Of a stretch of 64,000 nucleotides of DNA, positions 43,630-52,160 are shown one piece after another. The notes beneath the pieces were generated by a model. The model was not told the origin of the DNA and ran no database searches. It saw nothing but the letters and a program-made list of their open reading frames with translations. Where the stretch lies: the NCBI RefSeq assembly GCF_021129235.1, contig NZ_JAJOMA010000002.1:310001-374000 (forward strand), given 5' to 3'. Position numbers and translations under genes: made by a program. The stretch's first letter is position 1; the number at the start of each line of letters is the position of its first letter. Source of the DNA: Kineosporia mesophila. Lineage in GTDB: Bacteria > Actinomycetota > Actinomycetes > Actinomycetales > Kineosporiaceae.

Positions 43630-44229
43630 GTGACCTTCCTGTCCGTGCCGTCCGATCCCCCGCCACCGGCGGCCCGGTTCACCACGGTGCCCACTGTCGC
43701 GGCCACGAGCCGTCCGACCACCGCCGACACCCGGGCCGCGGTCGGCGCCCTGTTCCATCAGCATCAGATCCAGATGGTGCGGGTCGCCACGGTGCTCGTG
43801 CGGGACCCCGCGGTGGCGGAGGACGTGGTGCAGGACGCCTTCCTGGCCGTCTACGCGAACTGGTCACGGATCCGGGAGAAGGACGAGGCGGTGCGCTACC
43901 TGCACCGCAGCGTGGTCAACGTGGCCCGCAACCGCCTGCGGCGCCGGTCGGTGGTGGAGCGCCTGAAGTCGCTGCGCCACCACGACGAGGTCAGCGCGGA
44001 GGACCGGGCGCTCGGCGCCGGCCTGCCCAGCGCCCTGCTGGTGGCCGTCGCCGAACTGCCCCGCCGGGAACGGGAGACCGTGCTCCTGCGGTACTACCTG
44101 GACCTGTCGGAGAAGGAGACGGCCGAGGCACTGGGTCTGCGGCCCGGGTCGGTCAAGGGGTACGCGTCGCGAGGGCTCGCGAAACTGCGCTCGGTGCTGG
44201 AGCCGGCGATCTGTGGGGAGGAACGATGA
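43630..44229 (+). CDS. SigE-family ECF RNA polymerase sigma factor
   Basis: 199 residues starting at GTG 43630. After a Pro/Thr-rich N-terminal extension, sigma region 2 covers about 40-105 (VRVATVLVRDPAVAEDVVQD, AFLAVYANW), and region 4 covers about 135-190 (ELPRRERETVLLRYYLDLSE, KETAEALGLRPGSVKGYASRG). The SigE-like actinobacterial group is indicated. Its stop overlaps the ATG of a single-span membrane protein (ATGA), so a sigma/anti-sigma-like pair is inferred. Confidence 0.92.
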   Translation: MTFLSVPSDPPPPAARFTTVPTVAATSRPTTADTRAAVGALFHQHQIQMVRVATVLVRDPAVAEDVVQDAFLAVYANWSRIREKDEAVRYLHRSVVNVARNRLRRRSVVERLKSLRHHDEVSAEDRALGAGLPSALLVAVAELPRRERETVLLRYYLDLSEKETAEALGLRPGSVKGYASRGLAKLRSVLEPAICGEER

Positions 44230-44774
44230 CGGGCGACGACATCCTCGAGGCGAGGCTCAGGAAGGCTCTGGCGCGAGATCTTTCGGAGGTCACGCCGCGA
44301 CCCGGAGGGGAAGGGCGCCTGTACCGGGAGATGGACGGCGCCCGGCTGTACCGGCTGCCTCGGCTGAACCGGACGGTCCAGGCCGTGATCGTTCCCGCCG
44401 CCGTTGCCCTGGCGATTGCGGCTCTCGTGCTGGCCGTTCCGATGGTACTCGGGGTGGGCCGGGGGAGTGCGCAGCCGGCGGGCCGGCCGACCCCCACGGC
44501 GGTCTGCCCCACCGTGCAGGCCGGGGAGGAGGGAACCCTGACCCCGGCGGGCAGCGAGAGCGCCGAGCTCCTGGACGAGGGCACGGAACCCCGTTCGAAG
44601 GGTGACCTGGCGTCCGGTGCGACGGAAGAGCTGACCACACCGGGAGAATCGGTTCCGGCGGGGGAGTCTTCCTGTCCGGGCGAGGTGGGTCTCACCCTCG
44701 ATCCCGATCCCGATCCCGATCCCGATCCCGATGCCGGGACGGTGTGGTCGTGGCTCCTGCGCGGAACTCCCTGA
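44226..44774 (+). CDS. Single-span membrane protein coupled to the ECF sigma factor (putative anti-sigma)
   Basis: 182 residues overlapping the sigma gene by 4 bp. A cytoplasmic N-terminus of about 55 residues (ILEARLRKALARDLSE, LYREMDG) precedes one membrane span (VIVPAAVALAIAALVLAVPMV). The extracytoplasmic part is acidic and Ser/Thr/Pro-rich with two Cys. A hexanucleotide GATCCC repeat (about 44699-44733) encodes a run of Asp-Pro. Gene coupling and topology suggest an anti-sigma factor. No zinc-binding HxxxCxxC motif is present. Confidence 0.65.
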   Translation: MTGDDILEARLRKALARDLSEVTPRPGGEGRLYREMDGARLYRLPRLNRTVQAVIVPAAVALAIAALVLAVPMVLGVGRGSAQPAGRPTPTAVCPTVQAGEEGTLTPAGSESAELLDEGTEPRSKGDLASGATEELTTPGESVPAGESSCPGEVGLTLDPDPDPDPDPDAGTVWSWLLRGTP

Positions 44775-44878
44775 CCGTGTGCACAACCCGTCCGGGCTCC
44801 CGATTGTCATACAGGTGACGATCCGGAGCCGTGAGGCCGGTGCACCTGGCCCGCCGGGTCGTCACTTCAGGAGGCCGA

Positions 44879-45313
44879 ATGTCTCGCAAGAACGTCATGG
44901 GTGCGGCGCTGGTGTTCGCGTCGGGTCTGGTGCTGTCGGCAGCCGGGATGGCAGTGGCGAGTTCCTCCCACCCGGAAACGGTTTCGGTGGCTGCTGGGCA
45001 CGACACACAGACGTCGAAGGTGGTGAGCGTTCACGGTTCACTGGCGGCGGCCGGTGACGAGACGGTGGAGCCGATCTGCGTCGTGGGCGATGCCGCGGTC
45101 CCGGCCGGCACTGCGGTCCCGGCCGGCACTGCGGTCCCGGCCGGCACTGCGGCGGAAGATCTGGTGGCCGGGGAAGACGTGACGCCGGTGGCCTCCACCG
45201 ACGAGCCGCAGCTCCTGCCCGGCGAGGAAGCCCTCGACCCGTCCGAGTGTTCGGACGGGCCCAGGGAACTGGGTGAGGCCTCGACCACTGTCCCGGACCG
45301 GGCGAACGACTGA
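44879..45313 (+). CDS. Secreted acidic protein with AVPAGT repeats
   Basis: 144 residues from ATG 44879, with CAGGAGG six bases before it. A signal peptide (VMGAALVFASGLVLSAAGMA, cleavage near VAS) precedes an acidic mature domain. Three tandem 18-bp units (GCGGTCCCGGCCGGCACT, 45097-45150) encode AVPAGT repeats. Two Cys flank the repeat region (EPICVV and PSECSD). No family recognised. It sits 104 bp after the putative anti-sigma gene and may belong to its regulon. Confidence 0.6.
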   Translation: MSRKNVMGAALVFASGLVLSAAGMAVASSSHPETVSVAAGHDTQTSKVVSVHGSLAAAGDETVEPICVVGDAAVPAGTAVPAGTAVPAGTAAEDLVAGEDVTPVASTDEPQLLPGEEALDPSECSDGPRELGEASTTVPDRAND

Positions 45314-46134: not shown

Positions 46135-46216
46135 TCTGCTGAACATGCGAGGAGTGGCCATTTCGTTATAAAAAGGAACTCGCAGGTGCCCGACGACGTG
46201 ACCTGGGGAGACCCGT

Positions 46217-48961
46217 ATGCCCGATTCCGTGCTCTGGTGCGTTTCGTTCGACGGGACGCCGATGTCGGGTGTCGTGGTCGAGGCGCTGAAACTCGGCGAG
46301 GCCTTCCGGCAGCGGGGGCACCGGGTGCTGCTCGACATCGGGTACGACATCAAAGAGGACAAGGGCCGGTTCTTCGCCCCGTACACCGACGAGGCCGACG
46401 CCCTGCCCGGCTGGGTGGAACTGGTCCGCGTCGACGAGATCGCGCAGATTCCCTGGTACACCCCCGGCTTCGTGCGCCAGACGCTCGGCGCGGTGCGTCG
46501 TGGCTACCAGCCCTCGCAGACGGTGGCCTGCTTCGAGGTCGTCGTCGAGGCCCTGGCCCGGCGGATCGAGCAGACCTGGCACCGGCACGGGGTGACCGCG
46601 GTGCTGGTGGAGAACGGCACCCTGCCCGAGAACATCGCCTACACCCAGGCGCTGTACCGGGCCATCGAGCGCTACGGCCCGCACCTGGCCGACCGGAACG
46701 GCGATCGGCCCTTCGTGCTGTGGCGTGACCACGACCTGATGTGGAACAGCGAACCGTCGTCGGGGAAGTACGGCATTGCTCCCTACCCGCTGACGCCCCA
46801 GCCCCGTAACTCGCCCTGGATCCGCTACCTCGCCCTGCACGAGGAGGCCCGCCGCCGCACCCTCGAATGGGTCCCGGGGCTGCGCGACCTGAGGGTCCTG
46901 CACAACACCTTCGACTTCGACCGGGTCACCACCGCGTCCGGTCTGCGGGAGCACTACGGCATCCCGGCCGAGGCCGCGCTCGTCGCCCGCTGCACCCGCC
47001 TGATCCCGCAGAAGCGCGCCGACCGCGAGATCGACCTGCTCGTCCGGCTGGGGGAGCGGCTGGGCGACCGTCCGGCGTACCTGTTCCTGGCGGGGGACCC
47101 CTCCGAGCACCCGCCGACCGTCGCGGCCCTGAAGCAGCAGGCGCAGCGGCTGGGTGTCGAGGACCGGGTGATCTTCGGTGGCCGGCTCGCGGCCCGGGAC
47201 CTGGGCGCGGCCGGACCGGGCTTCTCGGTGTCCGACCTGCTCGCCGAGGCCGACGTGATGTCGTTCCTGACCTCCTACGACTACGAGAGTTACGGCAACC
47301 CGATCGGTGAGGCCGTGGCCTCGGGTGTGCCCTACCTGAGCACCCGGTACGCGCTCTACGACATCGTCTACGGGCGTAAGGGACTGCACGCGCCTGTTCT
47401 CGAGGTCTCCGGACCGGACGAGGCGCCCCTGACCGACGAGTTCGTCGCCGATGTCGCCGAACTCCTGACCAACCCGCTGCTGCGCAGCCGGGTCGCGGCG
47501 CACAACCGGGCCCGCGGCGAAACGTATTTCGCCCGCAGTCGGGCTGCCGAGATGGTGGACGATCTGCTCGGCGAACGCCCGCAGGCATCCGGAGCGCGGG
47601 TGGTCGCGTCCGGAATTGTGGACGGGGCGGTCGGCCGGGGGGATGCGCCGGACGTCTACAGTCCGGCCGGGCGGGCAGCCGTTCCGCCGCTGGCCGCCGG
47701 AACCCGCATGACGGTGGTGATCCCGGTGCGGGACGAGGCTGCCAACCTGCCGGCGGTGATCGAGTCCCTGGCCGGGCAGCGCGGGCCCGACGGGCCGCTG
47801 GATCGTTCACTGTTCGACGTTCTCCTGGTGGACAACAACTCCCACGACGACACCGTCGTCCTCGCCCGGCAGCTGGCGGCCCAGCACGACGGTCTGCGCC
47901 TTCACGTGATCGGTGAGAGCGAGCAAGGGGTCTCGTGCGCCCGCCGGACCGGGATGGGGCTGGCTGCCGAACGGGCCCAGGTGCGGGACGGCGACGACAC
48001 CGGCGAGCGGTTCTACCTGGTCTCGGCCGATGCCGACTGCCGGGTGGCGCCGGACTGGCTGTACGAGCTGCTGAGTGCCCTGGACGGTGACAAGGCCGCG
48101 ATCGGCGTGTGTGACTACTACTACGACGAGGCGCACTTCGCGGGCCGGCCGCTGCTGTGGGAGGCGATCGACCGCACGATCCGCAGCCGCCGGGTGGCCT
48201 GGGAACGGTTCGGTGGCTTCCCCGACGGCAAGGGGTTCGCGGTCGACCGGCGCTCCTACCAGCGCGTGGGCGGGATCGAGCTGTCGTACCAGCTGGAGGG
48301 CGGGCGGTTCGTCAGTCATCTGTCCGACGACTGGGACTTCGGCATCCTGGTGCGCGCCACTGGCGACGACATCGTGTACGTGCCCACGTCGCGCGTCGAG
48401 ATCAACCCCCGCCGGGTCGACCACGCGATCGACGAGGTGGTGGCCGGGCGGGCGTACGGTTCGGGCGGCATCATCACGATGCGCGACATCCGGCCCACGG
48501 GTCCGGGAGGTCGTGACCTGACCGAGGCGGAAGCGGTTCAGGCGTGGGAGTTCTCGATCAAGGACTTCATGCCCAAGAACATGATCCTGGCCGCGGTGCT
48601 CACCCCGTCGCTGCTGGACGACGAGGGTGTGATCGACCTGCTCTCGCCCGAGCTGGCCCGGCGGATGGCCTCGCGCATCCCGCAGATCACCGCGCAGACC
48701 CATCTTCTCAGCTACGTGCCGATCCACTCGTACAAGACCCCGTGCTTCCGGCTGTACTTCGAGTTCGCCGAGGAGCTCTTCGCCCGTCTGCGTGCGAAGG
48801 TCGGCCCCGACATCGGCTATCCGCCGCCCCTGCCCGACTGTCTCCAGGAGGTTCGCGACACCGGTGACGAGGAGCGGTTCCGCGAGTTCGTGCGTCACTA
48901 CTGCGAAGACCGTGAGTCCGGCGAGGCGCACGACTACTTCGGCAACGGAGGAGTTTTCTGA
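46217..48961 (+). CDS. Bifunctional glycosyltransferase: GT4-like domain fused to GT2-like domain
   Basis: 914 residues, ATG 46217 with GGGGAG upstream. Residues 1-455 are GT-B/GT4-like, with ARCTRLIPQKRADREIDLLV (nucleotide-sugar Arg/Lys region) and YESYGNPIGEAVASGVPYLS (E-x7-E motif). After a Gly/Ala-rich linker, residues 495-760 are GT-A/GT2-like, with MTVVIPVRDEAANLPAVIES, LLVDNNSHDD and the DxD-like SADADCR. The last 150 residues are helical and unassigned. No membrane span is seen, so it is likely cytoplasmic. Its stop overlaps the next start (TGATG), coupling it to a radical SAM enzyme. The acceptor is unknown. Confidence 0.85.
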   Translation: MPDSVLWCVSFDGTPMSGVVVEALKLGEAFRQRGHRVLLDIGYDIKEDKGRFFAPYTDEADALPGWVELVRVDEIAQIPWYTPGFVRQTLGAVRRGYQPSQTVACFEVVVEALARRIEQTWHRHGVTAVLVENGTLPENIAYTQALYRAIERYGPHLADRNGDRPFVLWRDHDLMWNSEPSSGKYGIAPYPLTPQPRNSPWIRYLALHEEARRRTLEWVPGLRDLRVLHNTFDFDRVTTASGLREHYGIPAEAALVARCTRLIPQKRADREIDLLVRLGERLGDRPAYLFLAGDPSEHPPTVAALKQQAQRLGVEDRVIFGGRLAARDLGAAGPGFSVSDLLAEADVMSFLTSYDYESYGNPIGEAVASGVPYLSTRYALYDIVYGRKGLHAPVLEVSGPDEAPLTDEFVADVAELLTNPLLRSRVAAHNRARGETYFARSRAAEMVDDLLGERPQASGARVVASGIVDGAVGRGDAPDVYSPAGRAAVPPLAAGTRMTVVIPVRDEAANLPAVIESLAGQRGPDGPLDRSLFDVLLVDNNSHDDTVVLARQLAAQHDGLRLHVIGESEQGVSCARRTGMGLAAERAQVRDGDDTGERFYLVSADADCRVAPDWLYELLSALDGDKAAIGVCDYYYDEAHFAGRPLLWEAIDRTIRSRRVAWERFGGFPDGKGFAVDRRSYQRVGGIELSYQLEGGRFVSHLSDDWDFGILVRATGDDIVYVPTSRVEINPRRVDHAIDEVVAGRAYGSGGIITMRDIRPTGPGGRDLTEAEAVQAWEFSIKDFMPKNMILAAVLTPSLLDDEGVIDLLSPELARRMASRIPQITAQTHLLSYVPIHSYKTPCFRLYFEFAEELFARLRAKVGPDIGYPPPLPDCLQEVRDTGDEERFREFVRHYCEDRESGEAHDYFGNGGVF

Positions 48962-50433
48962 TGTCCGACGTTTCGGTGAAACCCGCTTTCCGGAGAGACC
49001 AGGCTCTGAAGTCCCTGACCGCGATCGACCCCGGCCACCCGCGTCCCCTTGTTCTGGACGTTCTCGAGAGGCCGGAGAACACGGGTCTGCTGGAGTACGT
49101 CGCCAACGACCCGTTCGGTGCCCACGTGTTCCCGGGTGACATCCCCGATGTCTCCCCGTCGTCCTTTCTTGATGATCTGGACGCGCAACTGGCGAGCACG
49201 CGGCCCATTCATCTCTGGTCGTACATCCCGACCTGTAGTTACCGGTGCCGCTTCTGCCAGTACCCGGTCGTCATCGTCAAGGGCCCCGAGGGTGTGGTGC
49301 GGGACAAGGTCGACCGCTGGGTCGACCTGAACATCCGCGAGGCGCAGCTGTGGCTGGACCGGGTGCCCCGGCTGCGGGAGGCGCCGGTGGGCGAGTTCAA
49401 CGTCTTCGGGGGCACCCCCTCGCTGATGGGCCTGGACGCGGTCTCGCAGCTACTGGACTTCTACCGGGAGAACTTCGGTTTCGGCCCGGACACGACGATC
49501 CGCTTCGAGGGCGACCCGACCACGCTGACCGAGCCTCTGCTGGCCCGGTTGCAGGATCTGGGCTGTGACAAGGTGTCGTCGGGGGTGCAGTCGTTCGACG
49601 ACCACGTGCTGAAACTCAGCGGTCGGGAGCACACCGAGGCCGAGTGCCACGACTTCCTCGACAGCACGCAGCGTCTCGGGTTCGACTGGACCACGATCGA
49701 CCTGATGTACGGTCTGCTCGACCAGACCGTCGACAGCGTCGTGCGGGATCTGGACCAGGTGCTGAAACATGATGTGCCGGGCGTGGTCTGCACCAAGCTG
49801 CACCTGCGCTCGTACACCGACACCCGTACCGGGGTGGCCGGTGACCGGCCGGCGGCCTGGCAGTTCCCCGAGTACCGCGCCCGCCTGACCGAGTCCGGGC
49901 ACCACTGGCCCAGCCTGGGCGAGCAGTACCAGATGCGAGAAGTGCTGGCCGGCGGGCTGACCCGGGAGGGCTACGGCGAGCACCCGACCATGTACTTCCA
50001 CCGCGCGGACAAGCCGCCGGAGACCTGGAAGGCGATCATGGTCGACCAGGACCGGCAGGATGCCGAGGTCGCCATCGGCCTGGGCGGCAGTTCGAGCTGC
50101 CGCCGGTCCGAGGCGATGACCGAGGTGAACGCCGTGCAGTACATGAAGATGGTGGACGCCGGTCAGTTGCCTCTCACGTCGGCCACCCGGTTCGGGGATC
50201 TGGCCACGCAGGCCCGGGCGATCAAGATGGCGCTGTCCACCCTGCAGCCGCTGCGCGACGACGTGCACCGCGAGAGGTTCGCCGGGCGTTCGCTGTTCGA
50301 CGAGCCCTGGGGTGAGCGGTTCGAGGGTCTGGAACGGCGCGGTCTGCTGGTGACCGACCGGGCGGGCGGCACCGTGCGCCTCACCCCGCCGGGAGAAGTG
50401 CTGGTGGAGGCCGTGATGAACACCGAGTTCTGA
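48961..50433 (+). CDS. HemN-like radical SAM enzyme
   Basis: 490 residues. The 4Fe-4S motif CSYRCRFC is at Cys92, Cys96 and Cys99. FGGTPSLM is the HemN-type Gly motif, followed by RFEGDPTTLTEPLLARL, SSGVQSFDDHVLKLSGREHT and DLMYGLLDQT, all in HemN order. A HemN_C-like winged segment is at the C-terminus (ERFEGLERRGLLVTD). The first 80 residues are an unusual extension. No heme genes lie nearby. Coupling to a glycosyltransferase suggests a radical methylation, cyclisation or oxidation in a biosynthetic step rather than coproporphyrinogen oxidation. Confidence 0.88.
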   Translation: MSDVSVKPAFRRDQALKSLTAIDPGHPRPLVLDVLERPENTGLLEYVANDPFGAHVFPGDIPDVSPSSFLDDLDAQLASTRPIHLWSYIPTCSYRCRFCQYPVVIVKGPEGVVRDKVDRWVDLNIREAQLWLDRVPRLREAPVGEFNVFGGTPSLMGLDAVSQLLDFYRENFGFGPDTTIRFEGDPTTLTEPLLARLQDLGCDKVSSGVQSFDDHVLKLSGREHTEAECHDFLDSTQRLGFDWTTIDLMYGLLDQTVDSVVRDLDQVLKHDVPGVVCTKLHLRSYTDTRTGVAGDRPAAWQFPEYRARLTESGHHWPSLGEQYQMREVLAGGLTREGYGEHPTMYFHRADKPPETWKAIMVDQDRQDAEVAIGLGGSSSCRRSEAMTEVNAVQYMKMVDAGQLPLTSATRFGDLATQARAIKMALSTLQPLRDDVHRERFAGRSLFDEPWGERFEGLERRGLLVTDRAGGTVRLTPPGEVLVEAVMNTEF

Positions 50434-50485: not shown

Positions 50486-51121
50486 ATGACCTCGAAGACG
50501 GCTGACGTCCGGAACGGCCGGGCCCCGGCCCTGGGCCTGGCCGCCCTGGGCTGCGCCGCTCTGGCGCCCGCAATGATCGTGTTCACCATGAAGGTCCTGC
50601 CCGGCGTGGTGGTGCTGGGCGGTCTGATCCTTCCGCTGTGGACGATCAGCGTGGTGTTCGTGCTGCTCGCGGCCGTGATGCTGGGCGCTGCCGTGGTGAC
50701 GGGGGCCCGGGCGTCGCGGGCCCGTGGTGATGCGGGCAGCGTCGGTTCCGCGGTCAGCGTGCTGCTGGTGATGGCCACGGCGATCCTGATGGTGGTGACC
50801 CTGCTCTTCCTGGTGGTCGCGCTGCTCATGGGGCACCTCCTGAGCAACAACATCGGCAGTAAGCAGTTCGCCCGGCTGCGCCCGGAGGGACCGTGCCGGG
50901 TCGTCGCCCAGTACTCCACCTACTTCACCTCCGGCACCGGCACGTTCTTCGCCGTCAACGGCCTCGGCCTGGGCCTGAAGGCGGGCCACTACGACAGCGA
51001 CGACGGCACACTTCCCTTCGACGACGGAAACTACACACTGACCTGGAACGACGACATCGCCACGATCACCTACGGCGGCGAGGAGAACGCGGCGCCGCAC
51101 CGGGAGACGGTGCACTGCTAG
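50486..51121 (+). CDS. Membrane protein of unknown function
   Basis: 211 residues. Three hydrophobic spans lie at about 16-35, 42-72 and 88-116, followed by a soluble C-terminal domain of about 90 residues with beta character (CRVVAQYSTYFTSGTGTFFA ... GNYTLTWNDDIATITY) and two Cys near its ends (PCRVV and the last residue). No family recognised. It lies 52 bp behind the radical SAM gene on the same strand and could belong to that operon. Confidence 0.65.
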   Translation: MTSKTADVRNGRAPALGLAALGCAALAPAMIVFTMKVLPGVVVLGGLILPLWTISVVFVLLAAVMLGAAVVTGARASRARGDAGSVGSAVSVLLVMATAILMVVTLLFLVVALLMGHLLSNNIGSKQFARLRPEGPCRVVAQYSTYFTSGTGTFFAVNGLGLGLKAGHYDSDDGTLPFDDGNYTLTWNDDIATITYGGEENAAPHRETVHC

Positions 51122-51370: not shown

Positions 51371-51689
51371 TGCGTGCCCCGCTTCCGGGAGTACGCCGAT
51401 GCGGTACCCCAGGACCTGGCGCGACAGCCACGAACATCGACCGGGTTTCCTCGCGCTCCCGGCACAATGCCTTCCCGGCGAACGTTCATGGCCTCGTCCG
51501 GGCAGTTGCACACCTGCCGGCTTGGTGGTCGGTCTCGGTAAAGAGATCCTCGAAGTACGTTCTGGCGCAACGGAGGACGTGGGGATATCCGTACGGCGTT
51601 CGCAAGGGTGATCTTGGAGCGTGTCTCAGGTGGAGATTTTCCGGTGGCCGGTGGGGAACCTCTTTCCCTCGGCGCGCGTCCAAGGGGGC

Positions 51690-52160
51690 GTGAAGACGAG
51701 ACCCTGGACAGTGCCGCTGGTGGCGGCGGTTCTGGTGGCCGGTTGCGGATCTGATGACGAGGTGACCCCGCGGGACGCGGGAGTCGAGCGGAACATTCTC
51801 GGGACCTGGTACCCGTGGGACATCCCGGCCTACGTGCCGCCCGGGTTCGGTGCCGACAGCTTTCCCGAGGCCACGGTCACTTTCAAGGAAAACGGCACCT
51901 GGACCGGCAGTGACGGCTGCAACGGGCAGGGTGGTGACTACGAGATCGCCGCCGACGGCACCTTCAGCGCGGGGGAGCCGGGGCCCTCCACCTTGATGGG
52001 CTGTGCGAACGTTCCGAACGCGACCGTGCTGCACTCCTCCACGAAGGCGTCCGTCGAGGGCGGGATGCTCGTGCTGAGCCTGAACGGCACGACGACGGGG
52101 CGGTACCTGCGCGAGCCCCAGGTGGCCCCGTCGCCCAGCGCCTCGGTGGCCGACCGCTAG
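51690..52160 (+). CDS. META/HslJ-like lipoprotein
   Basis: 156 residues starting at GTG 51690, with AAGGGGG five bases upstream. A lipoprotein signal peptide (VPLVAAVLVAGC) gives the lipidated Cys near residue 17. The mature part contains the META-domain pattern TVTFKENGTWTGSDGCNGQG and a late TTTGRYLRE. HslJ-type META proteins are envelope stress or heat-inducible factors in enterobacteria; the role here is unknown. Confidence 0.75.
   Translation: MKTRPWTVPLVAAVLVAGCGSDDEVTPRDAGVERNILGTWYPWDIPAYVPPGFGADSFPEATVTFKENGTWTGSDGCNGQGGDYEIAADGTFSAGEPGPSTLMGCANVPNATVLHSSTKASVEGGMLVLSLNGTTTGRYLREPQVAPSPSASVADR

Follow-up and report, generated by a model that had tools for sequence, protein, structure and literature searches.

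The gene pair and its architecture

The DNA analysed here, which we call the window, is a stretch of 64,000 nucleotides from Kineosporia mesophila (assembly GCF_021129235.1, contig NZ_JAJOMA010000002.1, positions 310,001 to 374,000 of the forward strand). In it a gene for a glycosyltransferase (GT) is directly followed by one for a HemN-like radical S-adenosylmethionine (SAM) enzyme, hereafter rSAM (Table 1). The two genes are a real, undescribed and mobile two-gene system, and the open-access literature that was searched mentions the pair only in two tables of gene expression in nodules. A preliminary description, made from the letters of the window alone, had proposed a GT4-GT2 fusion of 914 residues overlapping an rSAM of 490 residues at TGATG, the latter with the motif CSYRCRFC. 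Both open reading frames were located accordingly, the GT domains score above the curated cut-offs (PF00534/PF13692, GT group 1, at residues 245-393; PF00535, GT family 2, at residues 499-674), and the cysteine motif is present together with a match to PF04055.

Table 1. Features of the GT-rSAM pair, with positions in the window
Feature	Position	Strand	Remarks
Promoter-proximal box, consensus GGGTTAAAAAGGATCT	46165..46180	+	upstream of GT in all six Kineosporia
GT4-GT2 fusion glycosyltransferase, 914 aa	46217..48961	+	Pfam PF00534/PF13692 and PF00535; kept in 20 loci
GT4 (GT-B) half, residues 1 to ~460	46217..47600	+	EX7E E357-E365; weak match to mannosylglucosylglycerate synthase and BshA profiles
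GT2 (GT-A) domain	47690..48300	+	DXD SADADC, residues 603-608; catalytic-type LSDDWDFG, residues 702-709
C-terminal 145 aa of GT, no Pfam family	48524..48958	+	only in GTs of the GT-rSAM system
Invariant 20-residue C-terminal tail YCEDRESGEAHDYFGNGGVF	48899..48958	+	runs right up to the stop codon in every homologue
TGATG, GT stop overlapping rSAM start	48959..48963	+	one shared base
HemN-like radical SAM enzyme (rSAM), 490 aa	48961..50433	+	CxxxCxxC at C92/C96/C99; PF04055

The junction of the two genes reads TTC TGATG, so that the stop codon TGA and the start codon ATG have one base in common. GT and rSAM are adjacent, with GT first, in every homologous locus inspected, and the one-base overlap recurs in 16 of the 19 intact loci, the remaining three having the genes 0-1 nt apart; the recurrence of this order and overlap argues that the arrangement is not due to chance. 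The catalytic motifs are kept across homologues in both GT domains and in rSAM. Within the GT, EX7E and DXD are invariant or nearly so, with E357 changed to Asp in Proteobacteria. The GT4 and GT2 parts are fused in Kineosporia and are separate neighbouring open reading frames in Duffyella, Cupriavidus taiwanensis and Rhizobium jaguaris, which supports a joint function of the two.

The GT4 halves match the mannosylglucosylglycerate synthase profile (NF041101) in four of eight members (best 3e-11; in Duffyella the match covers nearly the whole GT4), and the BshA profile in two of eight. Both of these enzymes use small acidic acceptors, and the matches are weak hints, at the level of sequence, that the GT4 acceptor may be of this kind. 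The score of 39.8 bits against NF041101 compares with a cut-off of 640, and the GT4 of the pair differs from the synthase in being fused to, or followed by, a GT2 domain and rSAM; identity with mannosylglucosylglycerate synthase was therefore rejected, the profile match being weak. Members of NF041101 were also sought for comparison in 247 Actinomycetes genomes, and none was found. The best curated matches of the GT2 half are the exopolysaccharide enzymes HpsE and EpsD, again weakly, and no Pfam membrane family matches GT or rSAM. Structural models of the two proteins, both built from four-sequence alignments, reached a predicted local distance difference test score (pLDDT) of 46 for GT and 59 for rSAM.

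Family of the radical SAM enzyme

The best curated neighbours of rSAM are STM4012, HemN, HutW and HemW, and all of them lie far below the cut-off. The top match is the STM4012 family (NF006067), with scores of 103.4 and 115 bits, yet its cut-off is 380 and its members fall in a separate clade; a true STM4012 member (610 bits) is encoded elsewhere in the window's genome. Scores against HemN (TIGR00538) are 92.3 bits for the window's protein and 98.4 for that of Paraburkholderia phymatum (cut-off 324.95). With HemW (TIGR00539) scores of 72.6 and 108 bits were obtained (cut-off 205.4), and ChuW/HutW (TIGR04107) gives 84.5 (cut-off 400). In a phylogenetic tree, whose deep joins between families are weak and which contains long branches, the 19 rSAM members form their own clade (support 100/100) on a long branch, apart from HemN (99/99), HemW and STM4012. 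The clustering with true HemN or HemW, which the preliminary description had named as an argument against its own proposal, was thus not observed. From these sequence comparisons we conclude that the HemN-like group includes rSAM as a new family.

HemN (1OLT) is the nearest solved structure both by sequence and by model (VIA Z 19.9 over 283 residues, root-mean-square deviation 4.0, next best 13.6, for a model of pLDDT 59), and by profile the class C methylase NocN ranks second among PDB entries; its absence from the VIA matches listed does not count against it. With HemN, rSAM shares the HemN-type fold, the N-terminal arm and an invariant SAM-I core made of the three Cys, GGTP and the equivalents of E145, Q172, R184 and D209. 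HemN differs in its VHIPFC motif, fourth Cys, Tyr56 and F310/Q311, and also because rSAM is partnered by GT: in all 19 rSAM sequences aligned, YIPTC stands for VHIPFC, H58 is replaced by Tyr, C71 by Tyr or Phe, and F310/Q311 by Trp/Lys (W356, K357). The 80-residue N-terminal extension that had been considered odd is in part a HemN-type arm, since the HemN profile aligns from residue 63 onward and 91 residues precede the first cluster Cys, versus 61 in E. coli HemN; no Pfam family matches the extension.

We also compared the residues that could bind a second SAM, as had been proposed. A Tyr stacks on SAM-II in both HemN (Tyr56) and NocN (Tyr34) (PMC12871812). In rSAM the Asp touching both SAMs is retained (D247), whereas the equivalent of Tyr56 is an invariant Trp86, still aromatic. 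The class C methylases (NocN/NosN, C10P) therefore resemble rSAM in their HemN-like core and SAM-touching Asp and differ in the stacking residue; moreover, the pair lies outside thiopeptide and polyketide clusters.

A conserved C-terminal tail of the glycosyltransferase

The last 145 residues of the GT match no Pfam family, and a search of all plasmids and of 297 Actinomycetes found them exclusively in the GTs of this system. They end in the tail listed in Table 1, whose pattern over homologues is [YF]CEDRESGxAHxxFxNGGVF-COOH. In the tail 80% of columns are invariant, compared with 35% overall, and no other stretch of 20 residues in the GT2 half is conserved to this degree, those with the catalytic motifs included; 20 of 20 homologues stop exactly at the terminal Phe of the tail. 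Among 14 homologues compared, codons vary at all 20 tail positions while residues stay fixed at 15 of them, which indicates that selection acts on the tail as protein and on its very end. Shine-Dalgarno coding, considered as another cause of this conservation, could touch only GGN-GGN, and all tail codons vary synonymously; it was discarded. Most simply, the tail would be an interface between GT and rSAM, or else it would cover the GT2 site as a lid.

Distribution and horizontal transfer

The pair was found in all six Kineosporia genomes searched. Profiles of rSAM and of GT each match the same 6 of 395 Actinomycetes genomes, namely the window's own, four genomes of one nifH-bearing genus and one Actinokineospora; in a phylum-wide sample of 396 genomes only the window's own genome has the pair. 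Within the two other genera presence is patchy (4 of 13 and 2 of 16 genomes, respectively). The nifH-bearing genus is probably Frankia, because nifH is above cut-off in 13 of its 13 genomes.

A search of plasmids returned ten records with GT, and the same ten hold the closest rSAMs. The carriers are P. phymatum, P. sabiae, P. phenoliruptrix, C. taiwanensis, Sinorhizobium garamanticum and R. jaguaris, together with three Duffyella gerundensis and one Pseudochrobactrum, and the sources given in the records are mostly plants or soil. In Pseudochrobactrum sp. XF203 (locus L035, 11298-15420) several frameshifts break both genes, which suggests recent decay or a sequencing error. On the symbiotic plasmid pBPHY02 of P. 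phymatum (locus L033, 11323-15431) about 9 kb separate the pair from nodS-nodU-cysC, which lies upstream of it. Viral contigs, phages and PADLOC were searched as well, and nothing was found there.

The functional coupling that the preliminary description had assumed for the two proteins agrees with these data: they co-occur next to each other in the six positive Actinomycetes genomes and on all ten plasmids, and the search for co-occurrence with a kept overlap, which it had recommended, gave the figures reported above. Since they always co-occur and are always adjacent, we regard GT and rSAM as one functional unit. In the rSAM tree, proteobacterial copies are separate from actinomycete copies, while alpha-, beta- and gammaproteobacterial copies are mixed, the Sinorhizobium (alpha) protein nesting among those of Paraburkholderia (beta) with support 95/96. 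The nesting, the patchy presence and the plasmid location together indicate horizontal transfer of the pair, which occurs in Actinomycetes as well as in the alpha, beta and gamma classes of Proteobacteria.

Expression in nodules and upstream elements

Published RNA-seq data from nodules are available for P. phymatum, in which GT is Bphy_7707 and rSAM is Bphy_7706; the locus tags agree with the annotation of the plasmid. In bean nodules of a nifA mutant the log2 fold change is -4.98 for GT and -4.07 for rSAM (PMC8305402, Table 1), and in an rpoN mutant it is -3.6 for GT (PMC5979394). Genes near the pair, encoding hemerythrin/AraC, QueE and a class I SAM methyltransferase, are likewise NifA-dependent (PMC8305402, Table 1).

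A near-perfect -24/-12 element precedes GT in S. garamanticum (11 of 12 positions, a score reached by 0.2% of shuffles), and the one upstream of GT in C. taiwanensis is weaker (10 of 12 positions, 3% of shuffles). Searches for nod boxes and NifA upstream sites gave no consistent match. In Kineosporia, the promoter-proximal box of Table 1 precedes the start of GT by about 40-50 bases and is slightly degenerate in the window's strain; further upstream the DNA does not align among the six genomes.

Possible function of the pair

The explanation that we favour, and to which we would give an even chance, is that GT and rSAM form a biosynthetic unit, complete in itself and moved by horizontal transfer, which makes a small, specialised and radically modified glycoside. 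The GT4 and GT2 domains would successively glycosylate a small soluble acceptor from primary metabolism, rSAM would then modify the product radically, whether by transferring a methyl or C1 group, by oxidation or by decarboxylation, and the invariant tail of the GT would be the contact through which the product is handed over. In symbionts the pair would work in the NifA-dependent bacteroid state, whose low oxygen suits rSAM because this enzyme is oxygen-sensitive. The spread of the pair among plant-associated bacteria and its strong NifA dependence in nodules make a role of the product in symbiosis or plant contact likely. Such a two-gene pathway, not described so far, would span different phyla of bacteria that live with plants; the pair also brings to light a new family of HemN-like radical SAM enzymes and a strictly conserved GT C-terminus.

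Several observations weigh against this explanation. The profile matches that hint at a small acceptor are far below the curated cut-offs. No export or tailoring gene is common to the loci, so that the pair might act on an existing cell glycan. Concerning symbiosis, no sigma54 promoter better than chance was found upstream of GT in P. phymatum, and the NifA dependence may be indirect. Furthermore, three Kineosporia genomes checked, including the window's, have no nifH above cut-off, and nitrogen fixation is therefore not the common role of the pair.

It is conceivable, though rather unlikely, that what the pair modifies is a polysaccharide or glycolipid of the cell surface instead of a small molecule. 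The similarity of the GT2 half to HpsE and EpsD would fit, as would the plasmid copies in plant symbionts, where surface glycans matter; however, the 18 neighbourhoods compared keep no polymerase, flippase or nucleotide-sugar gene, the Pfam searches gave neither protein a membrane family, and the pair occurs in Gram-positive and Gram-negative envelopes alike. As for rSAM being a true coproporphyrinogen III oxidase or heme chaperone beside an unrelated GT, HemN is indeed its best match of solved structure, but scores far below all family cut-offs, a clade of its own, the replacement of the HemN-specific C71, H58, F310 and Q311 and the constant pairing with GT make this exceedingly improbable.

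A further alternative, to which we assign a low probability, is that rSAM acts on the GT itself, the GGVF-ending tail being its substrate, for instance in a HemN-type oxidative decarboxylation of the terminal Phe. The revised chemistry of HemN consists of H-abstraction followed by loss of the carboxylate (PMC12871812), and the conservation of the tail, the selection on it as protein, its fixed end at Phe and its occurrence only alongside rSAM are all compatible with such a role. The outcome would be either an activated form of the GT or a peptide set free from it, by analogy with a mycofactocin whose precursor is fused to the GT, which we also hold to be quite unlikely. In mycofactocin (MftA/MftC/MftF) a radical SAM enzyme and a GT2 are likewise always together, and the last four residues of the precursor, CGVY, are invariant (PMC3023750), giving with GGVF a common C-terminal -G-V-[YF]. 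This resemblance is short and was spotted post hoc, and a GT active-site lid or a docking peptide explains the conservation equally well. The mycofactocin enzyme is of the SPASM type while rSAM is HemN-like, no other conserved neighbour accompanies the pair among open reading frames of at least 90 aa, and MftF reaches only 29 bits with the GT4 and GT2 of the pair (cut-off 280). In place of the short precursor that stands beside a SPASM enzyme and its partners in mycofactocin-like systems of ribosomally synthesised and post-translationally modified peptides (RiPPs), the invariant C-terminus here sits on the GT, and neither a RiPP recognition element (RRE) domain nor a peptidase was found. That rSAM modifies, or is loaded by, the GT C-terminus (...NGGVF-COOH) in a RiPP-like or self-activating system that plant-associated bacteria carry from phylum to phylum, with a peptide that is radically altered and perhaps glycosylated, seems improbable to us.

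Neighbouring genes

An all-against-all comparison of open reading frames of at least 90 aa in the 18 neighbourhoods found no further gene common across groups. The membrane protein of 211 aa at 50486-51121, which had been put forward as a possible third component, is present only in the two closest strains and was ruled out for this reason. Further downstream, at 51621-52160, there is a META-domain lipoprotein-like gene, found near the pair in all six Kineosporia and absent from the Actinokineospora locus; it too was rejected as a third component, as it does not accompany the pair beyond the genus. A link to trehalose was considered and dropped, no neighbour being consistent across loci: treRBC adjoins the Duffyella copy, ThuA/Gfo-Idh and sugar ABC genes adjoin that of Pseudochrobactrum, and treS lies about 5 kb from that of P. 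sabiae.

On the other side of the pair, the window contains a sigma-70-family regulator gene overlapping a short second open reading frame (43630-44774), which is not kept beside the pair in other genera, and, adjoining these frames, a gene whose small product is putatively secreted and contains PAGTAV hexapeptide repeats (44831-45313). Finally, on a plasmid of Bradyrhizobium sp. ISRA443 (locus L063, 4688-11342) the gene for a distant HemN-like protein, 25% identical over 94% of the query, is accompanied by another radical SAM gene, a glycosyltransferase gene, galE and a GT4 gene; this is possibly an analogous GT-rSAM locus of other make-up.

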